From the NCBI RefSeq assembly GCF_008065135.1, contig NZ_CP042914.1, forward strand, positions 6,429,404 to 6,493,403: a stretch of 64,000 nt of DNA. Reading direction: 5' to 3'. The stretch is from Roseimaritima ulvae (lineage in GTDB: Bacteria; Planctomycetota; Planctomycetia; Pirellulales; Pirellulaceae). A program made the translations under genes and the position numbers. Positions 1 through 27,656 of the stretch are shown here, in pieces. The notes beneath the pieces are model-generated. The model was not told where the DNA came from, searched no databases, and was given only the letters and a program-made list of their open reading frames with translations. Numbering within the stretch: position 1 is the stretch's first letter; each line of letters starts with the position of its first letter.

Positions 1-602
1 TGGGAGACATCGCGTGCCATTACTTTGACCCTGTGTTCCGCGCCCTGCAGTTGGGAGCGCCCAGCACGGTGGAAGCATCGTCCACGCAGGTTAATGACGA
101 GACCTACCCGCTGGGTTCGATGATCACGTTCCACTTCCCGGCTCGTGGTGACAAGGCGGCATTGAAACTGGTCTGGTACGATGGAGGCCTGCGTCCGCCG
201 CGTCCCAAAGCGATCCAAGAAGGCGACGTCATGGGCCCCAACGGGATCTTGTTGGTCGGTGAAGACGATGCCGTGCTGATGTCCGACTGGACCCGTTGGA
301 CGATGTATCCCGAACAACGTGCCAAGGATTACGGTGCCCCGCCTAAGAAACTCGAACGCTCCCCCGGCCATCATGTCGAATGGATCGCGGCGTGTAAGGG
401 CGGAGCAGCGGCAGGGTCCAACTTTGACGTGGCGGGCCCCATGACCGAAGCGATTTTGCTGGGGAATGTGGCATTACGGTCCCAAATGCGTGAACCTTTG
501 ACCCGCGCACAGTTAGAATGGGACGCAGAAAAACTGACATTTACGAACAATCCGGCCGCGAACCAATTCCTCCGCAGGGAATATCGAGACGGCTGGGTCT
601 AA
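1..602 (+). CDS. Gfo/Idh/MocA-family oxidoreductase, C-terminal part (cut by window start)
   Basis: The reading frame is already open at base 3 ([12 protein letters not shown]...) and runs to TAA at 602, so the first Met at base 33 is internal and the true start lies outside the window. About 200 C-terminal residues are visible. They resemble the alpha/beta C-terminal domain of planctomycete Gfo/Idh/MocA dehydrogenases: conserved GDIACHY and [15 protein letters not shown] segments, a [11 protein letters not shown] strand and the closing [19 protein letters not shown]. The nucleotide-binding Rossmann domain is not in view. Family members oxidise or epimerise sugars and related compounds with NAD(P); the substrate cannot be told. 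The next gene starts 13 bases downstream, so it is probably co-transcribed with the PSCyt/DUF1501 pair, as often seen in planctomycete catabolic clusters. Confidence 0.85.
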
Positions 603-615
603 TCACGAGGCACGC

Positions 616-2730
616 ATGCTCGACCGCCCCAGTCGACTCATTTTTCCGTTGCGGTTAGTTGTGATCAGCTGCTTGTTTGGCAGCGTGTACGCCCGTGGCG
701 AACCGCCGCGGGAAGAAGTCGATTTCAACCGGGACGTGCGCCCGATCTTGGCGGAAAATTGCTACGCCTGCCACGGGTTTGACGAAGCGGCTCGCGAAGC
801 CGATCTGCGCCTGGATACGTTTGCCGGGGCGATCGGCAGCGACGGCGGCAATGCGGCGATTGTGCCCGGCGAACCAGACGAAAGCGAATTGATCGCTCGC
901 GTGCTGACCGACGACGCGGACCAAATCATGCCGCCTGCCGATTCCGGCAAACGACTCAGCGACGCTCAGCGGGACATTCTGCGACGCTGGGTCCAGCAGG
1001 GCGCCAATTACGAAACCCACTGGGCCTTCGTGCCGCCACAACGAAGCGAACCGCCCCTGGTCGAAGGCGTCTCGCACCCGATCGATCGCTTCATCCAAGC
1101 TCGTCTGGCGAGCGAAGGCATCTCCCCCTCGCCGCGAGCGGACAGCCAAACGCTGATTCGCCGACTCAGCTTGGACCTGACCGGATTGCCTCCCACGCCG
1201 GAACAAGTCGACACCTTCATCACCGCCACCGCCGCGGATCCCGATGCCGCTTATCAGGAACTGACCGAACGCCTGCTGGCCAGCCCGCACTACGGCGAAC
1301 GCTGGGCATTGTGGTGGCTGGACCAAGCTCGTTATGCCGACAGCAACGGCTACTCGGTCGATGCCCCGCGACAGATTTGGGCCTACCGCGACTGGGTGAT
1401 CGACGCGTTCAACCAGGATATGCCCTTCGACACATTCACGATCGAACAACTGGCGGGCGACCTGCTGCCCGAGGCCACGGAAAGTCAAAAGATTGCCACC
1501 GGGTTCCACCGCAATACTCAGATCAACCAAGAAGGCGGGATCGACAAGGAACAGTTTCGCATCGACAGCGTGTTCGATCGCGTGGCGACCACCGGCACCG
1601 TGTGGTTGGGACTGACGATCGGCTGTGCCCAATGCCACGACCACAAGTTCGATCCGATCTCGCAGGTCGAGTATTACCAAATGTTTGCCTTCCTGAATAA
1701 TCAGGATGAACCAGCGATGAAAGTCTATGGACCGGAAGGCGACCCGAGTTCCGACAAGCCGTTGACCACGACGCTGGTCATGCGAGAACGCGGCAAGCCG
1801 CGGGATACACACCTACTAATCAAGGGCGACTTCACGCGCCCCGCACAGCCGGTCACGCCGGCAACGCCCTCGATATTGCATCCATTGGAAAGGGCAGCGG
1901 AGCGAGCAGAGCAACCGCCCAACCGCTTGGATCTAGCCAACTGGATCGTCAGCCCCAACAATCCGCTCACCGCCCGCGTGATCGTCAACCGCCTGTGGCA
2001 GCAATACTTCGGTCGCGGCCTGGCGGAAATCGAAAACGATTTTGGCCTGCAAGGCTCCACGCCGTCCCACCCGGAGTTACTCGACTGGCTGGCGCTGGAA
2101 TTTATCCGTCAGGGCTGGAGTATCAAAGATATGCAGCGGCTGATCGTCAGCTCTCGCACCTATCAGCAAGCCTCGCGGTTGCGGCCGGAACTGAGCGAAA
2201 AAGACCCTGACAACTATCTACTCGGTCGACAGCGACGGTTGCGACTGGATGCGGAAATCGTGCGTGATACGTTGTTGGCAGCCTGTGGACTGTTGTCACC
2301 CAAGCTCGGTGGCCCGCCGGTCTATCCGCCCATTCCCAACGGCGTGATGGGACAGGGACAGGTCAAGCGAGCCTGGAAGACGAGCACGGGCGAAGATCGT
2401 TATCGACGCGGCATTTACACCTTTAAGTTCCGTGCCACACCGCCGCCGGCACTGAGCGTGTTTGATGCTCCGGACGGGTTTAGCACCTGCACGAGACGGC
2501 TCCGCAGCAATACGCCCCTGCAAGCGTTGACGCTGATGAACGACCCGGCGCATGTGGAATTTGCGACGGCAATTGAGAAAATCATTCTTAGCGACGGACT
2601 GGAAACGGCTTTCCGACGCTGTACTTCGCGGACCCCCACGGCTGAAGAGTTGGCCGTATTAGCCCGCCTCGATTCGCTCAGCGCCGCCCGCACGCTGCTG
2701 AACCTCGACGAAACCATCACTCGTGAGTGA
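616..2730 (+). CDS. PSCyt1/DUF1549/DUF1553 secreted cytochrome-like protein
   Basis: A 704-residue protein with an N-terminal signal segment (hydrophobic residues about 9-25). A planctomycete cytochrome C-type domain follows, with a CYACH haem motif at residues 49-53. DUF1549 spans about 153-360, with [14 protein letters not shown] and a second haem motif CAQCH at 337-341. DUF1553 runs from about 435 to the end ([21 protein letters not shown]). It is shorter than many relatives because no lectin-like insert separates DUF1549 from DUF1553. The ATG at 616 has a GAGG Shine-Dalgarno stretch just upstream. The stop codon overlaps the possible GTG start of the DUF1501 gene, which suggests translational coupling. 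The family's biochemical role is unproven; it is thought to act in the periplasm, possibly in redox-dependent polymer breakdown. Confidence 0.9.
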
Positions 2731-4192
2731 AACCAATACGATGTCAAACAAGCTGCGAACCGATAACTTGTTGCGTGAGCAAACGCGTCGACATTTCTTT
2801 TCCCGCTGCTCGATGGGCGTGGGGTCGATGGCCCTGGCATCGCTGATGGCCGAGCAAGGGCAGGCCGCGCCCTCGGCTCACCCGATGCAGCCCAAGACGC
2901 CGCATTTTCCCGCCAAGGCCAAGAACGTCATCTTTCTGTTTATGGCCGGCGGTCCGTCTCAGCTGGAAACGTTTGAATACAAGCCCGAACTAACAAAACG
3001 CAACGGCGAACCGATCCCGCAAAGTTTTGTCGAAGGCAAACGTTTTGCGTTTATGAACAGCAGCCACCGCAGCGACCTGCTGGGCACGACTCGGACCTTC
3101 CAGCGTTACGGTCAAAACGGTACTTGGGTCAGCGATCTGTTGCCGCACACAGCGAACATCGTCGATGAGTTGACGATTGTCAAAACCTGCAAAACGGACT
3201 TGTTCAATCACGCGCCGGCGAAGTTCTTCATGAACACCGGCAGCGGTCTGTTCGGCCGCCCCAGCATGGGCGCCTGGGTGACGTATGGGTTGGGCAGCGA
3301 GTGTGATGACCTGCCAGGTTTCCTAGTGCTGCAAAGCGGCCCGCGTGGACCGCGTGGCGGCGCTGTGTTGTGGGGCAGTGGCGTCCTGCCGACGACATAT
3401 CAAGGCGTCCCGCTGCGCAACCAGGGCGACCCGATCCTGAACCTTTCCACCCCCGATTCGATCGATCCCACACAGCAACGAGCCGTGGTGGATGCGGTGC
3501 GTGAATTGAACCTAAAACGGTTGGTGGAGACCGGTGATGAAGAGATCTCCACACGGATCAACGCTTATGAACTGGCTTACCGAATGCAAAGCTCGGCGCC
3601 GGAGTTGATGGACACGGCCGGGGAGAGCGCCGAGACGTTGGCGATGTACGGGATCAAAGACCCCAACGAATCGAGCTATGCGAGGAACTGTCTGTTAGCG
3701 CGGCGGTTGGTCGAACGCGGCGTGCGGTTCATCCAGTTGTACCACACCAACTGGGACCACCACGGCGGGCCGACGGAGAACCTGCAAGAGCACCTACCGG
3801 CGATCTGTAAAGAGATTGATCAAGCCACCGCAGCGTTGGTGATGGATCTCAAGCGTCGCGGTTTATTGGAGGACACGATCGTGATCTGGGGCGGCGAGTT
3901 TGGCCGCACGCCAATGGGTGAAGTGCGAGCGACGACGGGCCGCAACCATCACATCGACGCGTTCACGATGTGGTTTGCCGGCGGCGGATTCAAAGCCGGT
4001 CATGTATACGGCGAGACGGATGAATTCGGCTTTGGCGCGATCGAGAACCCGGTCCACGTGCACGACCTACACGCCACCATCCTGCACCAACTAGGGCTCG
4101 ACCACCACCGCCTGTCCGTCCGCTTCCAAGGCCTCGACTTCCGTCTGACAGGCGTCGACCCAGCGCACGTGGTGAAAGACCTATTGGCGTAG
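2723..4192 (+). CDS. DUF1501 family protein with Tat signal
   Basis: About 489 residues. It begins with a twin-arginine-type leader ([21 protein letters not shown]), so export in folded form is likely. DUF1501 belongs to the alkaline-phosphatase/sulfatase-like fold. Visible family motifs are [40 protein letters not shown], and the terminal [14 protein letters not shown] and FRLTGVDP segments. Two starts are possible: GTG at 2723, overlapping the upstream stop by 8 bases, or ATG at 2741. It pairs with the preceding PSCyt protein, the standard arrangement in planctomycetes; the partners are presumed to work together in the periplasm. The stop codon is followed directly by the repeat array. Confidence 0.9.
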
Positions 4193-23821: not shown

Positions 23822-24358
23822 CTAGAACAATTTTTCTGGTTCGATTCGTAACCGGCAGTCCTCGCACACCCGCAAGTCTTGCTCTTCAGCGGTCGCCCGG
23901 CGGTAAACTCGTTTTTCCGTCAGCGTCCAGATTTCCAGGGTCGCCGTTTCCGGATCGAGGATCAAGTAGTAGGGAACTTGCTGTTGCTGATAAAGCTGAA
24001 ACTTAACCGTGCGGTCACGCTGCGCCGTCGATTCGGAAAGCACTTCAGCAACCAGTGCGGGGGGACGCATGACATGCCGCTGAGGAACTTCGCCGCACAG
24101 TACCACGAGGTCCGGGCGGACCACGGTATCGTTGGCAACGACCCAGTCAATTTCATGCAAAACCTGCGCGTCACACTGCTGCTGATTGCGTTGGACCAGT
24201 AACTGGCTCAGCAGGTTGGCGGCGACTTGTTGATGACGACCAAATGGGCTGGGGGTCATCGCCACGGCAATCCCATCCCATAACTCCCAGTCACCTTGCC
24301 ACTGGCTGAAGTCGTCTACGGTGTAGTGCGGCAAATAGCGAGGGGAGGCGGATGACAT
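23822..24358 (-). CDS. Uma2 family putative PD-(D/E)XK endonuclease (DUF820)
   Basis: 178 residues from ATG at 24358. The Uma2 pattern is clear: YTVDDFSQWQGDWELWDG near the start, GRHQQVAANLL, VVRPDLVVLCGE (catalytic Asp), PALVAEVLSEST (Glu), RDRTVKFQLYQQQQVPYYLILDPE. These match a PD-(D/E)XK nuclease core. Uma2 proteins are numerous in cyanobacteria and planctomycetes, often near transposon-like repeats; their function is not established. The gene lies 54 bases downstream of the Dnmt2-like methyltransferase on the same strand, and the two might be co-expressed. Confidence 0.88.
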   Translation of the reverse strand: MSSASPRYLPHYTVDDFSQWQGDWELWDGIAVAMTPSPFGRHQQVAANLLSQLLVQRNQQQCDAQVLHEIDWVVANDTVVRPDLVVLCGEVPQRHVMRPPALVAEVLSESTAQRDRTVKFQLYQQQQVPYYLILDPETATLEIWTLTEKRVYRRATAEEQDLRVCEDCRLRIEPEKLF

Positions 24359-24412
24359 GGCAACAACATTGTAAAGAGAAAATGGCGGCAAACGCTTCCC
24401 GCCACGTGTACG

Positions 24413-25345
24413 TTAATTGTACATCAGCGATGCCAGCACGTCGCGCACGACCGGAAGCGCCAGACTGTTGCCCAACATCTTCCATCGACGTCGCAAAGGA
24501 ATATCGTCCGGCCAAGTAAAGGCGTGGGCGTCGAACCCCAGCAAGCGTTGGATTTCGTTCGGCGAAAAACGTCGCAGACGGCCGCCGACGCGAAGGTACG
24601 AACCGGCTTGCTTGATCGATTTGCCGTAGCCGCCGGTGAAACAAGCTGTGCAAGCCTGCTCGTCATCGGCGTCGACAATGTGCAGGGCGCCGGCCTGCAG
24701 AGCGGTCGCGAACGCGCCGGGCTGAGTATCGTCGATCCATAAATTGTCATCCACCTCCGCATCCAGATAAGTCGACAGTGGGTCGACGGGCAGGGAACCC
24801 GGTGACGGGGTGACGGGGGGAGGCGGCTGTTCGCAAATATCGCTTCGCCACGCGGTCACGTAATATCTCAGCCGTCGATTGGGCCGCTGCCATGCCGAGG
24901 GACACAGGCATTGTTCGGTGACCCGATAGCCCAGCTCGTTCAGCAGTCGCAGCCATTGCTGATGGTCGTCGCTGCCACGGAACTCGGGCACGTTTTCCAT
25001 GGCGATCCGCTGCGGAACAGCGTCGCCAGCGGACTGCAGGACTCGCATGACTTGCTGAAACGCCGCCCGTCGCGGGTCGTCCGCTGCTTGCCGGCCACGT
25101 CGGCAATAGGGTTGGCAGGGGGGCGACAACCACCAAGCGTCGGCGGACCGCCAATCGATATTTGTTTGCCAGCTGTGCGGCGACTCGATCGTGGCCACCA
25201 CGGGCGAGTCACCAAAGTTGTGGGCATACACGCGAGCGCACTGTTGGTCGATATCAACGGCTTGGTGGATTCGCCCCAACTGCGGCGATTGCCGAACCGC
25301 TTCGGCCACCCCTCCGATGCCAGAAAACAGTTCGAGGATCTGCAT
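24413..25345 (-). CDS. Dnmt2-like tRNA (cytosine-C5) methyltransferase
   Basis: 310 residues from ATG at 25345; ATG at 25348 is also possible. C5-methyltransferase motifs: LELFSGIGG (SAM binding, 4-12), PPCQP with catalytic Cys77, ENV at 117-119, and RLRYY near 158-162. Three features match eukaryotic Dnmt2/TRDMT1 rather than restriction-modification enzymes: the CFT box at 235-237 followed by GGYGKSIKQAGSYL, the RRFSPNEIQRLLGF segment, and the closing MLGNSLALPVV. Length is also close to Dnmt2, with only a small target-recognition region. Dnmt2 methylates C38 in the tRNA-Asp anticodon loop, and a bacterial form is known from Geobacter. The start lies 43 bases downstream of a tandem hairpin repeat. 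Activity on tRNA here is inferred. Confidence 0.8.
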   Translation of the reverse strand: MQILELFSGIGGVAEAVRQSPQLGRIHQAVDIDQQCARVYAHNFGDSPVVATIESPHSWQTNIDWRSADAWWLSPPCQPYCRRGRQAADDPRRAAFQQVMRVLQSAGDAVPQRIAMENVPEFRGSDDHQQWLRLLNELGYRVTEQCLCPSAWQRPNRRLRYYVTAWRSDICEQPPPPVTPSPGSLPVDPLSTYLDAEVDDNLWIDDTQPGAFATALQAGALHIVDADDEQACTACFTGGYGKSIKQAGSYLRVGGRLRRFSPNEIQRLLGFDAHAFTWPDDIPLRRRWKMLGNSLALPVVRDVLASLMYN

Positions 25346-25387: not shown

Positions 25388-25657
25388 CCTCGTGCCCAGG
25401 CTCTGCCTGGGTACGCAATGCATCGGAGGCTCCGCCTCCACCTTCACTTACTGACCCTCACTTACTGGCAGGCAGAGCCTGCGGGACAGGGTGTTACCAG
25501 GCGGAGCCTGGTAACAAGACTACCTCGTGCCCAGGCTCTGCCTGGGTACGTAATGCATCGGAGGCTCCGCCTCCACCTTCACTTACTGTCCCTCACTTGC
25601 TGGCAGGCAGAGCCTGCGGGACAGGGTGTTACCAGGCGGAGCCTGGTAACAAGACTA
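25388..25657. repeat. Two tandem copies of a 135-bp hairpin-rich repeat
   Basis: Copies span 25388-25522 and 25523-25657 and differ at only a few bases. Each holds four small hairpins with three-base loops around an AGGC-N3-GCCT core: CCCAGGCTCTGCCTGGG, GGAGGCTCCGCCTCC, GCAGGCAGAGCCTGC and TTACCAGGCGGAGCCTGGTAA (the last nine base pairs long). The second copy ends exactly on the lpxI stop codon, so the repeat supplies that stop. Confidence 0.92.
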
Positions 25658-26551
25658 GGCGGCGGCTTGGGCCGCGTTGCGTTTCACCGCAACGATGGCG
25701 ATGCCGGCGGCTTCGGCGGCTTGAATCACTTGCTGTTGGTCGACCACGATCGTCATCTCCGCTTCGATGGCGATGGCCGTTCCGCCGGCAGCCCGTACGC
25801 GTTCGATGGTTTGGGGGCCGATGGTGGGCACGTCAAACCGCATATCCTGATTCGGCTTGGCGACCTTGACCAGCGTCCAGCCTCCTTTGCGGCACAGGGT
25901 TCCGGTGCGTTCGATACAGGCGTCCGTACCTTCGACCGCTTCGACAGCCAGCACCGTACCGTCTTTGACCGTGATACTTTGGCCGATATCCAGGCCGCCC
26001 ATTTGTTTGGCGATCTGCCAACCGAATTCGATATCGCGTTGTTGAGCGGGTTTGACGCTGTGCCGCGTTAACAGGCCTTCTTTCACGAGCAGCTCCGGAG
26101 CGATGTCGGTGGCCGGGCAGACATCGATGCCCCGTGCCAGGTAGGTATCTGTAATACGAGTTAACAGGCTATCGTCGCGTGTATCGCGTTGGCGGGAGAG
26201 CAACAGCGGAGCCAGCGACCGCAGGCAGGTGTAGTCCGGCAGGTGCCGCCACAGCACGGACCCGGAAAACAAAATTTGCGATTTGAACAGCTTGCCGGCC
26301 ATTGTGATTTGCGAAACGCCGTGTTGGCGAAAGTACCGGATGTGACCGCCAAATTTGGCCACGCCCATCCACCGCACATCGTCGCAGACTTGTTCCAATC
26401 GCCGGTCCGCGTGATCACGGATGGCGACACACACCACCCGCAACCCGTCACGCTTGGCCGCTTCGGCGACCAGCACGGGAAAGCGTCCCCAACCGGCGAT
26501 GATACCGATGGTTTTCGCAGCGCAGGAATCCGGCCCGATGGATGGTTGCAT
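25655..26551 (-). CDS. lpxI: UDP-2,3-diacylglucosamine pyrophosphatase LpxI-type
   Basis: 298 residues from ATG at 26551, seven bases after the lpxD stop; ATG at 26584 is an alternative that overlaps lpxD. The protein follows the LpxI (DUF1009) family: GIIAGWGRFPVLVAEAAKRDG at the start, WMGVAKFGGHIRYFRQHGV, AGKLFKSQILF, DIEFGWQIAKQMGGLDIGQS, VEAVEGTDACIERTG, KPNQDMRFDVPTIGPQT and EAEMTIVVD. LpxI hydrolyses UDP-2,3-diacylglucosamine to lipid X in lipid A synthesis and replaces LpxH in many bacteria. Together with lpxD directly upstream it supports a lipid A pathway and a true outer membrane. The stop codon lies in the 135-bp repeat. Confidence 0.92.
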   Translation of the reverse strand: MQPSIGPDSCAAKTIGIIAGWGRFPVLVAEAAKRDGLRVVCVAIRDHADRRLEQVCDDVRWMGVAKFGGHIRYFRQHGVSQITMAGKLFKSQILFSGSVLWRHLPDYTCLRSLAPLLLSRQRDTRDDSLLTRITDTYLARGIDVCPATDIAPELLVKEGLLTRHSVKPAQQRDIEFGWQIAKQMGGLDIGQSITVKDGTVLAVEAVEGTDACIERTGTLCRKGGWTLVKVAKPNQDMRFDVPTIGPQTIERVRAAGGTAIAIEAEMTIVVDQQQVIQAAEAAGIAIVAVKRNAAQAAA

Positions 26552-26558
26552 CACGCTC

Positions 26559-27656
26559 TCAGGCGGCCCGAGAATCACGGTCATCTTGTTTGGTCTGCTC
26601 GGCTTGCTCGGCCTGTTCAACTCGAGCAGCCAGCTTTTCGACTTGCCGCACTAGCCGCTGCAGCGATTTACGCATTTCCGGCAAGCGACGTTGGACGGCC
26701 ATGATTTGCATCTGATCGCGTTGGGACGTAGCTGGACTGCCCAGGTAGACTTCGCCACCCGACAGATCTTCCATCACGCCGGCTTGCGCCCCGACGATCG
26801 CTCCATCGCCCAGGCGGACGTGATCCTTTAATCCCACCTGCCCGGCCATCACGACGTAGTCGCCGGTGGAACAGCTGCCGGCAACGCCGACCTGGGAACA
26901 GATCAGGTTGTGGCGTCCGATTTGGCAGTTGTGGGCGATCATCACCTGGTTGTCGACTTTGGTTCCGGTGCCGATGCGGGTGGTACCATAGGTCCCCCGG
27001 TCGACCGTCACCGCGGCGCCCAGCTCCACATCCGACTCGATATGCACATATCCCAATTGCGCGGTGCGGATGTGCCGGCCCCCTTCCTGACGGTAGCCAA
27101 ACCCATAGGCGCCGATCACCGAACCGACGTGGATCACCACGCGATCTTCCAGCACGCTGTAGGGATACAGCACCACATTGGGGAACAAATGGCAATCGCT
27201 GCCCACGCGGCAGTGCGGCATGATCACCACTCCGGGCATCAGCGTGGTGCCGGAACCGATTTTGGCGCCGGCACCGATATGCACGCCGGGATGGATCGTG
27301 CAGTGTTCGCCGATCTCCGCTTGGGGGCTAATCCGAGCCTGATCGCTAATGCCTTGAAAGACATCATCGATATCGGGGCGAAACTGGCGAATAATTTGGG
27401 CAAACGCGGCGTGAATGTCCGACACGACTAATTGCGGGGTGGTTGCCTCGGCAACCGGCTGCTCAACCACGACCGCGGCGGCTTGGCTGCGAGCGACCTG
27501 AGCGATCCGCTTGGGATCGTCCAGCAATGTGATGTGTCCGACGGCGGCTTCCTGCAATGGTCGCGCCTCGACGCACTCGGTCGAACCGTTGCCCACCACC
27601 CGGCCGCCAACTAGGTCGGCCAGTGTTTGTAGGGTAAAGACGGTTGTATTGGTCAC
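26559..27656 (-). CDS. lpxD: UDP-3-O-acylglucosamine N-acyltransferase LpxD
   Basis: 365 residues, somewhat longer than the E. coli protein. The start is GTG at 27656, fixed by an AAGGAGG Shine-Dalgarno seven bases upstream. An N-terminal uridine-binding domain (about 1-110) precedes a left-handed beta-helix of hexapeptide repeats (IGEHCTIHPGVHIGAGAKIG onward), with the likely catalytic His in MIAHNCQIGRHN. A C-terminal helix (LQRLVRQVEKLAARVEQAEQ) may be a trimer coiled coil. LpxD adds the second, N-linked acyl chain to UDP-GlcN in lipid A synthesis. The stop is followed after seven bases by lpxI. Confidence 0.94.
   Translation of the reverse strand: MTNTTVFTLQTLADLVGGRVVGNGSTECVEARPLQEAAVGHITLLDDPKRIAQVARSQAAAVVVEQPVAEATTPQLVVSDIHAAFAQIIRQFRPDIDDVFQGISDQARISPQAEIGEHCTIHPGVHIGAGAKIGSGTTLMPGVVIMPHCRVGSDCHLFPNVVLYPYSVLEDRVVIHVGSVIGAYGFGYRQEGGRHIRTAQLGYVHIESDVELGAAVTVDRGTYGTTRIGTGTKVDNQVMIAHNCQIGRHNLICSQVGVAGSCSTGDYVVMAGQVGLKDHVRLGDGAIVGAQAGVMEDLSGGEVYLGSPATSQRDQMQIMAVQRRLPEMRKSLQRLVRQVEKLAARVEQAEQAEQTKQDDRDSRAA

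Follow-up and report, generated by a model that had tools for sequence, protein, structure and literature searches.

Dnmt2, an enzyme that resembles DNA methyltransferases and works on tRNA, has long been puzzling, and an open frame within a 64,000-nucleotide stretch of the Roseimaritima ulvae genome (the whole stretch analysed here, referred to as the window) raises the question of whether this planctomycete encodes a genuine member of the family and, if so, which of its tRNAs may be methylated.

Reading frame and catalytic motifs

The dnmt2-like frame occupies positions 24413-25345 of the window on the minus strand (ATG at 25345, stop at 24413) and encodes 310 aa plus stop, beginning with MQILELF and ending with SLMYN; stops are present in the same register on the plus strand. 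An alternative longer start is available (GTG at 25447, giving 344 aa), but ATG 25345 is the better start because the 34 extra residues enter a tandem repeat and fall outside the alignable part of the relatives. At E ≤ 0.001, the gene is the sole match in the 8,212,515-base single-contig genome. With PF00145 matched at 4.4e-29 and human DNMT2 in the PDB at 3.1e-31, chance can be dismissed as the source of the resemblance.

The C5-methyltransferase core of the protein is intact and comprises motif IV SPPCQPY (25106-25126, codons 74-80, coordinates derived from codon numbers) with the catalytic Cys77 in SPPCQP, motif VI ENV (24989-24997, codons 117-119, E117-N118-V119) and motif VIII RLR (24866-24874, codons 158-160, R158 and R160), all on the minus strand, as is the Dnmt2-specific CFT box (24635-24643, codons 235-237). 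The box (C235-F236-T237) lies within TACFTGGYGKSIKQAGSYL, and the protein also carries RRFSPNEIQRLLGF and MLGNSLALPVV, so that every sequence sign on which the earlier note had relied (the C5 core, the CFT box, the glycine motif following it and the last of these stretches) was recovered in the 310-aa frame. Catalytic roles of the Cys, Glu and Arg residues in these motifs are established for the C5-methyltransferase superfamily. The motif IV Cys is present in all 95 bacterial Dnmt2-like rows compared (86 distinct genes), 4/4 eukaryotic Dnmt2 and 21/21 presumed DNA C5-methyltransferases, and ENV and both Arg residues of motif VIII are invariant in the same three groups. One locus outside the 95-row set (L017 in genome G068; methyltransferase at 1486-2412, plus strand) has PPVLP in place of PPCQP, ECV in place of ENV and CFM in place of CFT in a frame that is still open, and judging from these substitutions it is likely an inactive Dnmt2-like protein that has lost its catalytic Cys.

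Assignment to the Dnmt2 family

The window gene is a bacterial member of the Dnmt2/TRDMT1 family with intact catalytic motifs and one chromosomal copy. The earlier note had made the same assignment, and it was borne out by phmmer, profile, CF box, tree and fold, all of which place the protein nearer to Dnmt2 than to DNA C5-methyltransferases. In a phmmer search of the PDB the five top chains were all Dnmt2 (human 3.1e-31 and 5.9e-31, Spodoptera 1.5e-27, S. pombe 2.6e-24, Entamoeba 1.4e-22), and the best HhaI chain followed at 8.1e-11. A family profile (A1) built from 27 planctomycete relatives, with L017, L024 and L026 omitted, scored Dnmt2 chains of the PDB at 212-257 bits versus ≤133 bits for HhaI. 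When the collected loci were scanned with this profile, Dnmt2-like frames scored 298-428 bits and the rest 57-135 bits with an empty gap between them, and the lower-scoring frames were taken as DNA C5-methyltransferases; two further presumed DNA enzymes (L135 and L136) reached 133 and 132 bits, and a truncated Dnmt2-like row (L133) reached 248.

The CFT box is given as a criterion for Dnmt2 in the available text of PMC3227630. The CFx..Y box was found in 83/86 distinct bacterial Dnmt2-like genes (92/95 by row, before removal of nine genes held twice), 4/4 eukaryotic Dnmt2 and 0/21 presumed DNA C5-methyltransferases, M.HhaI and its relatives having no CF box, and exact CFT was found in 69 of the 86 genes (77/95 by row). 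Three exceptions to CFx..Y (L035, L050 and L054) have TFT instead. Among the 30 loci from the window's family (L001-L030), CFx..Y is universal and CFT occurs in 20.

An AlphaFold2 model based on input alignment A1 (mean pLDDT 94.5, pTM 0.92) shows a single-domain Dnmt2-like fold for the 310-aa protein, without a large N-terminal regulatory domain, and the nine top Foldseek chains were all Dnmt2. VIA-align 2 gave Z scores of 33.9 for S. pombe (rmsd 2.1, 292 aligned), 33.8 for Entamoeba, 32.2 for human 1g55 and 31.4 for Spodoptera; HhaI reached up to 30.9 (rmsd 2.5, 287 aligned), and another human Dnmt2 entry, 9hgm, ranks among the HhaI rows at 30.5. The modelled fold agrees with Dnmt2, but its separation from HhaI is modest, and by itself it does not exclude a DNA enzyme. 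Compared with the eukaryotic Dnmt2/TRDMT1 set (human 1g55/9hgm, S. pombe Pmt1 6fdf, Spodoptera 4h0n and Entamoeba EhMeth 3qv2), the window protein has the same catalytic motifs, CFT box, fold (Z 30.5-33.9), single catalytic domain and similar length, but only 28-32% identity over the alignment. M.HhaI and related DNA C5-methyltransferases likewise share the catalytic motifs and the fold.

Genomic neighbourhood and a possible role in DNA methylation

A different reading is that the gene encodes a DNA C5-methyltransferase that merely resembles Dnmt2, either as an orphan or paired with a putative restriction endonuclease. The Pfam domain matched by the protein (PF00145, 4.4e-29) is labelled DNA methylase, the NCBIfam dcm model matches below its cut-off (85.8 vs 100.65 bits), PADLOC type II methyltransferase models match as well (best 3.4e-25), and the abstract of PMC5456315 states that the DNMT2 of bacteria works as a DNA methyltransferase, counting HhaI-type enzymes as DNMT2. 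Moreover, the next gene downstream, in the same orientation, is a Uma2-family gene (23822-24391, minus strand; PF05685, 3.2e-29; putative restriction endonuclease in Pfam). Against these points stand the grouping with Dnmt2 in phmmer, profile and tree, the missing CFx..Y box in all of the presumed DNA C5-methyltransferases, and the surroundings of related loci. A tblastn search (1e-5) of loci L002-L144, which cover R. sediminicola as well, recovered nothing similar to the window's Uma2 protein, and phmmer found no counterpart of it in the ORFs flanking 80 other loci. Furthermore, with neighbours picked by a rough procedure, none of the PADLOC type II restriction endonuclease models matched at 1e-5 among 141 adjacent proteins of 80 other loci (proteins under 900 aa, with five larger ones omitted), and only single adjacent proteins matched the RtcR, mad2, SduA (Shedu nuclease) and PDC-M37B models. 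Among the matches listed for plasmids (10 of 13 matching records) and phages (10 of 34), only distant C5-methyltransferases appeared, with 21-30% identity and ≤76 bits (full-length ones 23-26% in plasmids and 21-25% in phages). Hence, we regard a DNA-methylating role as improbable. Uma2 was dropped as a restriction partner, given that it has no counterpart beside other loci and that no type II restriction endonuclease was found among the 141 neighbours, and is judged to be an unrelated neighbour. Since the domain goes by the name of DNA methylase in general profile models, many proteins of this kind are probably annotated as DNA methylases.

On the minus strand of the window the gene order is lpxD-like, lpxI, dnmt2-like, Uma2 and metallophosphatase. 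The lpxI gene (25655-26620, minus strand, with LpxI_N and LpxI_C domains) lies upstream of the dnmt2-like gene and is also found just upstream in two of three other genomes of the same genus (G083, which is R. sediminicola with L002 = L031, and G028 with L003); in the third (G109, L004 = L032) the surroundings of the gene showed no lpxI. The lpxI gene is a context common to same-genus relatives and not part of the mechanism. Across phyla, no conserved gene neighbourhood was found beyond near relatives (neighbour Pfam comparison among the 25 listed of 122 families), the largest cluster being HAD hydrolases at 8/81 loci; this absence is soft, since ORFs were chosen by length and some shadow frames were taken in high-GC DNA (lpxI of L031 was missed in this way). 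A direct tandem repeat of 2 x 135 bp (25388-25657, 98% identical) separates lpxI from the dnmt2-like gene in the window, whereas in R. sediminicola the methyltransferase starts directly after the lpxI stop. Each copy of the repeat contains a 25-nt imperfect palindrome.

Distribution of bacterial Dnmt2-like genes

In 2011 Dnmt2 was considered generally not to be found in bacteria outside Geobacter, according to the available text of PMC3227630, and the earlier note had likewise described the family as rare in bacteria with Geobacter as the known case. Such a view is outdated: of the 149 genomes searched in the window's family, 43, including the window's own, gave strong matches (E < 1e-15), and a species-level genome collection contains relatives at 166 loci. 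This patchy distribution within the family indicates that Dnmt2-like function is dispensable. Another 21 genomes of the family have weak matches only (E 5.6e-10 or worse), which are probably DNA C5-methyltransferases. Among 392 genomes of the phylum, 34 pass E 1e-20; four exceed 300 bits (two from the window's family and two from another family, f24), and the other 30 score ≤132.5 bits. In the order of a Geobacter relative (G550), 12/141 genomes carry a relative; the Geobacterales proteins have the CF box and the WW-SPPCQP core in common with the window protein.

The best 80 of the 166 loci all score as Dnmt2-like, and their titles include Planctomycetota, Geobacteraceae, Desulfuromonas, Syntrophales, Acidobacteriota and Myxococcales, as well as Lujinxingia vulgaris (Bradymonadales) and two Actinomycetota MAGs. 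Named strains with relatives are Roseimaritima sediminicola, Rhodopirellula solitaria, Geobacter argillaceus and Lujinxingia vulgaris. A single-sequence scan of this collection found no relative; the relatives were recovered by an alignment-based scan via one pattern, WW[ML]SPPC[QT], and the WW seen in these rows is a selection effect since the pattern itself contains it. Among family loci found without the pattern, WW is present in 29/30 (the exception being L026). The pattern scan of viral contigs found no relative. A literature search, with most subscription papers beyond its reach, found no paper on Dnmt2 in planctomycetes. Two loci from MAGs titled "Klebsiella pneumoniae" (L079 and L081) cluster with Myxococcota-titled rows in the tree and are probably mislabelled bins. 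In another planctomycete family, a Dnmt2-like domain was observed at the C-terminus of a 1076-aa open frame (L127 in G167, 465-3692, plus strand) in which the methylase is the only Pfam domain; the frame may be either a fusion or a chance open frame.

Phylogeny and origin

Phylogenetic analysis was based on 64 rows and 298 columns under LG+C20+F+G4. A set of 99 Dnmt2-like rows was reduced at a threshold of 55% identity, and L031, L138 and L127 were put back; the eukaryotic rows were four only, taken from PDB alignments and two of them with a missing stretch, and the 12 DNA C5-methyltransferase rows comprised 10 from planctomycete genomes chosen by their resemblance to the query, L135 and M.HhaI, the only characterised enzyme among them. 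A fully supported split (100/100) separates 48 bacterial Dnmt2-like and four eukaryotic Dnmt2 rows from the 12 DNA C5-methyltransferases, M.HhaI and its relatives being on the opposite side from the window gene. Thus, the gene groups with Dnmt2, and the clustering with restriction-modification methyltransferases that the earlier note had named as a refutation was not seen. The window gene is placed with Roseimaritima sediminicola (100/97) within an eight-row Pirellulaceae group of Roseimaritima, Rhodopirellula and Rubripirellula (100/99).

The earlier note had also suggested that the gene might have been acquired by transfer, and the idea that this planctomycete lineage recently received its Dnmt2 gene from a eukaryote has a precedent in the eukaryote-to-bacterium transfer that Jurkowski and Jeltsch suggested for Geobacter in 2011 (available text of PMC3227630). 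In our tree, the four eukaryotic Dnmt2 rows form their own clade (100/100), and recent transfer from the sampled eukaryotic lineages is therefore unsupported, though a clade of Roseimaritima plus eukaryotes is not formally rejected by the AU test (p 0.11, 18.6 log units worse); the same is true of Geobacter plus eukaryotes (p 0.128, 20.9 log units worse). The bacterial rows are many and deep and come from several phyla, the nesting of the window gene among Pirellulaceae also argues against a eukaryotic source, and constraining all 48 bacterial rows to one clade gave a log-likelihood 2.41 above that of the free tree (p 0.586), which means that a single bacterial clade fits equally well. Taken together, these results make a recent eukaryotic donor very improbable. 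With a broad bacterial Dnmt2 clade that includes named strains, the origin of eukaryotic Dnmt2 becomes testable.

Candidate tRNA substrate

ARAGORN was run at all places of 68 RF00005 hits and yielded 69 distinct tRNA sequences in the window's genome. Both tRNA-Asp(GUC) genes have A38, with the loops CUGUCGA (chromosome) and UUGUCUA (a tRNA array), and the chromosomal tRNA-Glu(UUC) has the loop CUUUCAC with C38 followed by G39. The array copy of tRNA-Glu(UUC) (loop CUUUCUA) has A38, and the two tRNA-Glu(CUC) genes have A38 and G38. C38 was also found in tRNA-Val(UAC), tRNA-Val(CAC), tRNA-Ser(GGA) and three array tRNAs (Cys, Leu and Ala). The array itself (L175, G000:C1:1934500-1953500) consists of two clusters with 24 distinct tRNAs for many amino acids, most of them with low covariance scores, and is possibly located on a mobile element.

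Since C38 occurs in the chromosomal tRNA-Glu(UUC) but in neither of the tRNA-Asp genes, tRNA-Glu is the likely target. Of the tRNA-Asp/tRNA-Glu pair proposed in the earlier note, the tRNA-Glu half is consistent with the genome and the tRNA-Asp half is not. The main target of eukaryotic Dnmt2, C38 of tRNA-Asp, is unavailable here, and its absence removes tRNA-Asp as a target in this genome without proving tRNA-Glu. For the Dnmt2 of Geobacter sulfurreducens (GsDnmt2, GSU0227), a bacterial family member whose reported substrate coincides with the best candidate in the window's genome, tRNA-Glu is listed in Table 1 of PMC5372726, and the available text of PMC5456315 describes a preference for tRNA-Glu with low activity on tRNA-Asp (the position being printed as 28). 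A CACGCG context for DNMT2 sites is reported in the available text of PMC6409601; C36-A37-C38-G39, which corresponds to its start, occurs among the C38 tRNAs of the window's genome only in tRNA-Glu(UUC).

It is also conceivable that an enzyme of the same family and chemistry acts on a different tRNA with C38, for example tRNA-Val(UAC/CAC), or on more than one tRNA. Besides the Val and Ser carriers in the window's genome, C38 is likewise seen in tRNA-Val(UAC) of two genomes from other phyla that carry the gene (G534 and G535), and tRNA-Val and tRNA-Gly are additional substrates of the mouse and Drosophila enzymes (Table 1 of PMC5372726). However, the CACG context is unique to tRNA-Glu(UUC) among the C38 tRNAs of the window's genome, the characterised bacterial Dnmt2 uses tRNA-Glu, and tRNA-Val(UAC) has A38 in 9/9 gene-bearing Geobacterales in which ARAGORN found one near tRNA-Asp, so it is not a target shared with them. 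A target other than tRNA-Glu thus seems unlikely.

Our preferred reading, to which we give a probability of roughly 75%, is that the gene (24413-25345), annotated from its frame, best PDB matches, tree and AlphaFold model with structural matches as a predicted tRNA (cytosine-38-C5)-methyltransferase, encodes a Dnmt2-family enzyme that acts on tRNA, most likely at C38 of the chromosomal tRNA-Glu(UUC). Such an AdoMet-dependent enzyme would use the fold and chemistry of DNA C5-methyltransferases on tRNA: Cys77 would attack C6 of the target cytosine to form a covalent adduct, Glu117 and Arg158/Arg160 would assist catalysis, and the methyl group would pass from AdoMet to C5 of the target base, giving m5C38 in the anticodon loop of this tRNA-Glu(UUC), a mark that may tune or protect the tRNA. 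We infer activity, RNA instead of DNA as the substrate (from family membership), tRNA-Glu as the target and a physiological benefit. In comparison with the earlier note, the bacterial family is wider and the predicted substrate sharper (m5C38 on tRNA-Glu, not on tRNA-Asp).

Position 38 was then compared between genomes with and without the gene (gene-less meaning no dnmt2-like match at E < 1e-15), covering 90/149 genomes of the window's family for tRNA-Asp and 128/149 for tRNA-Glu (15 without a Glu match and six with weak matches left out). The best-matching tRNA-Asp has A38 in 38/40 gene-bearing and 50/50 gene-less family genomes, the two C38 exceptions (G047 and G117) being gene-bearing and from one genus, and the best-matching tRNA-Glu(UUC) has C38 in all 128 (38/38 gene-bearing and 90/90 gene-less); this survey favours look-alikes, since each other genome contributed just the one tRNA most similar to that of the window's genome. 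Outside the family, where tRNA-Asp was sought by a pattern leaving position 38 free, C38 was found in 16/18 gene-bearing genomes (16 non-planctomycete and two f24), the pattern detecting no tRNA-Asp in the other two, and also in 8/8 gene-less Geobacterales. Hence, unlike the window's genome, the Geobacterales genomes read have C38 in tRNA-Asp, and A38 in tRNA-Asp looks like a trait of the window's family that is independent of the dnmt2-like gene. Because C38 in tRNA-Glu and A38 in tRNA-Asp are as common without the gene as with it, the tRNA data permit a tRNA-Glu substrate and do not prove it.

It is possible, and we propose this only tentatively, that Dnmt2 is an old multi-phylum bacterial family of tRNA-Glu methyltransferases with the tRNA-Asp-preferring eukaryotic Dnmt2 as one descendant, and that the window's family, having mostly lost the cytosine of tRNA-Asp, amounts to a natural experiment in which tRNA-Glu remains as the conserved target. 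Such natural tRNA backgrounds without C38 in tRNA-Asp should allow an alternative target to be read cleanly. A CGAC variable loop of tRNA-Glu was considered as a gene-linked feature (8/32 gene-less vs 0/38 gene-bearing genomes) and was rejected after the full census (8/90 vs 0/38, Fisher p 0.10). The best-matching tRNA-Asp(GUC) carries G37-A38 in 88/90 genomes of the window's family, whereas A37-C38 is seen in Geobacterales and others.
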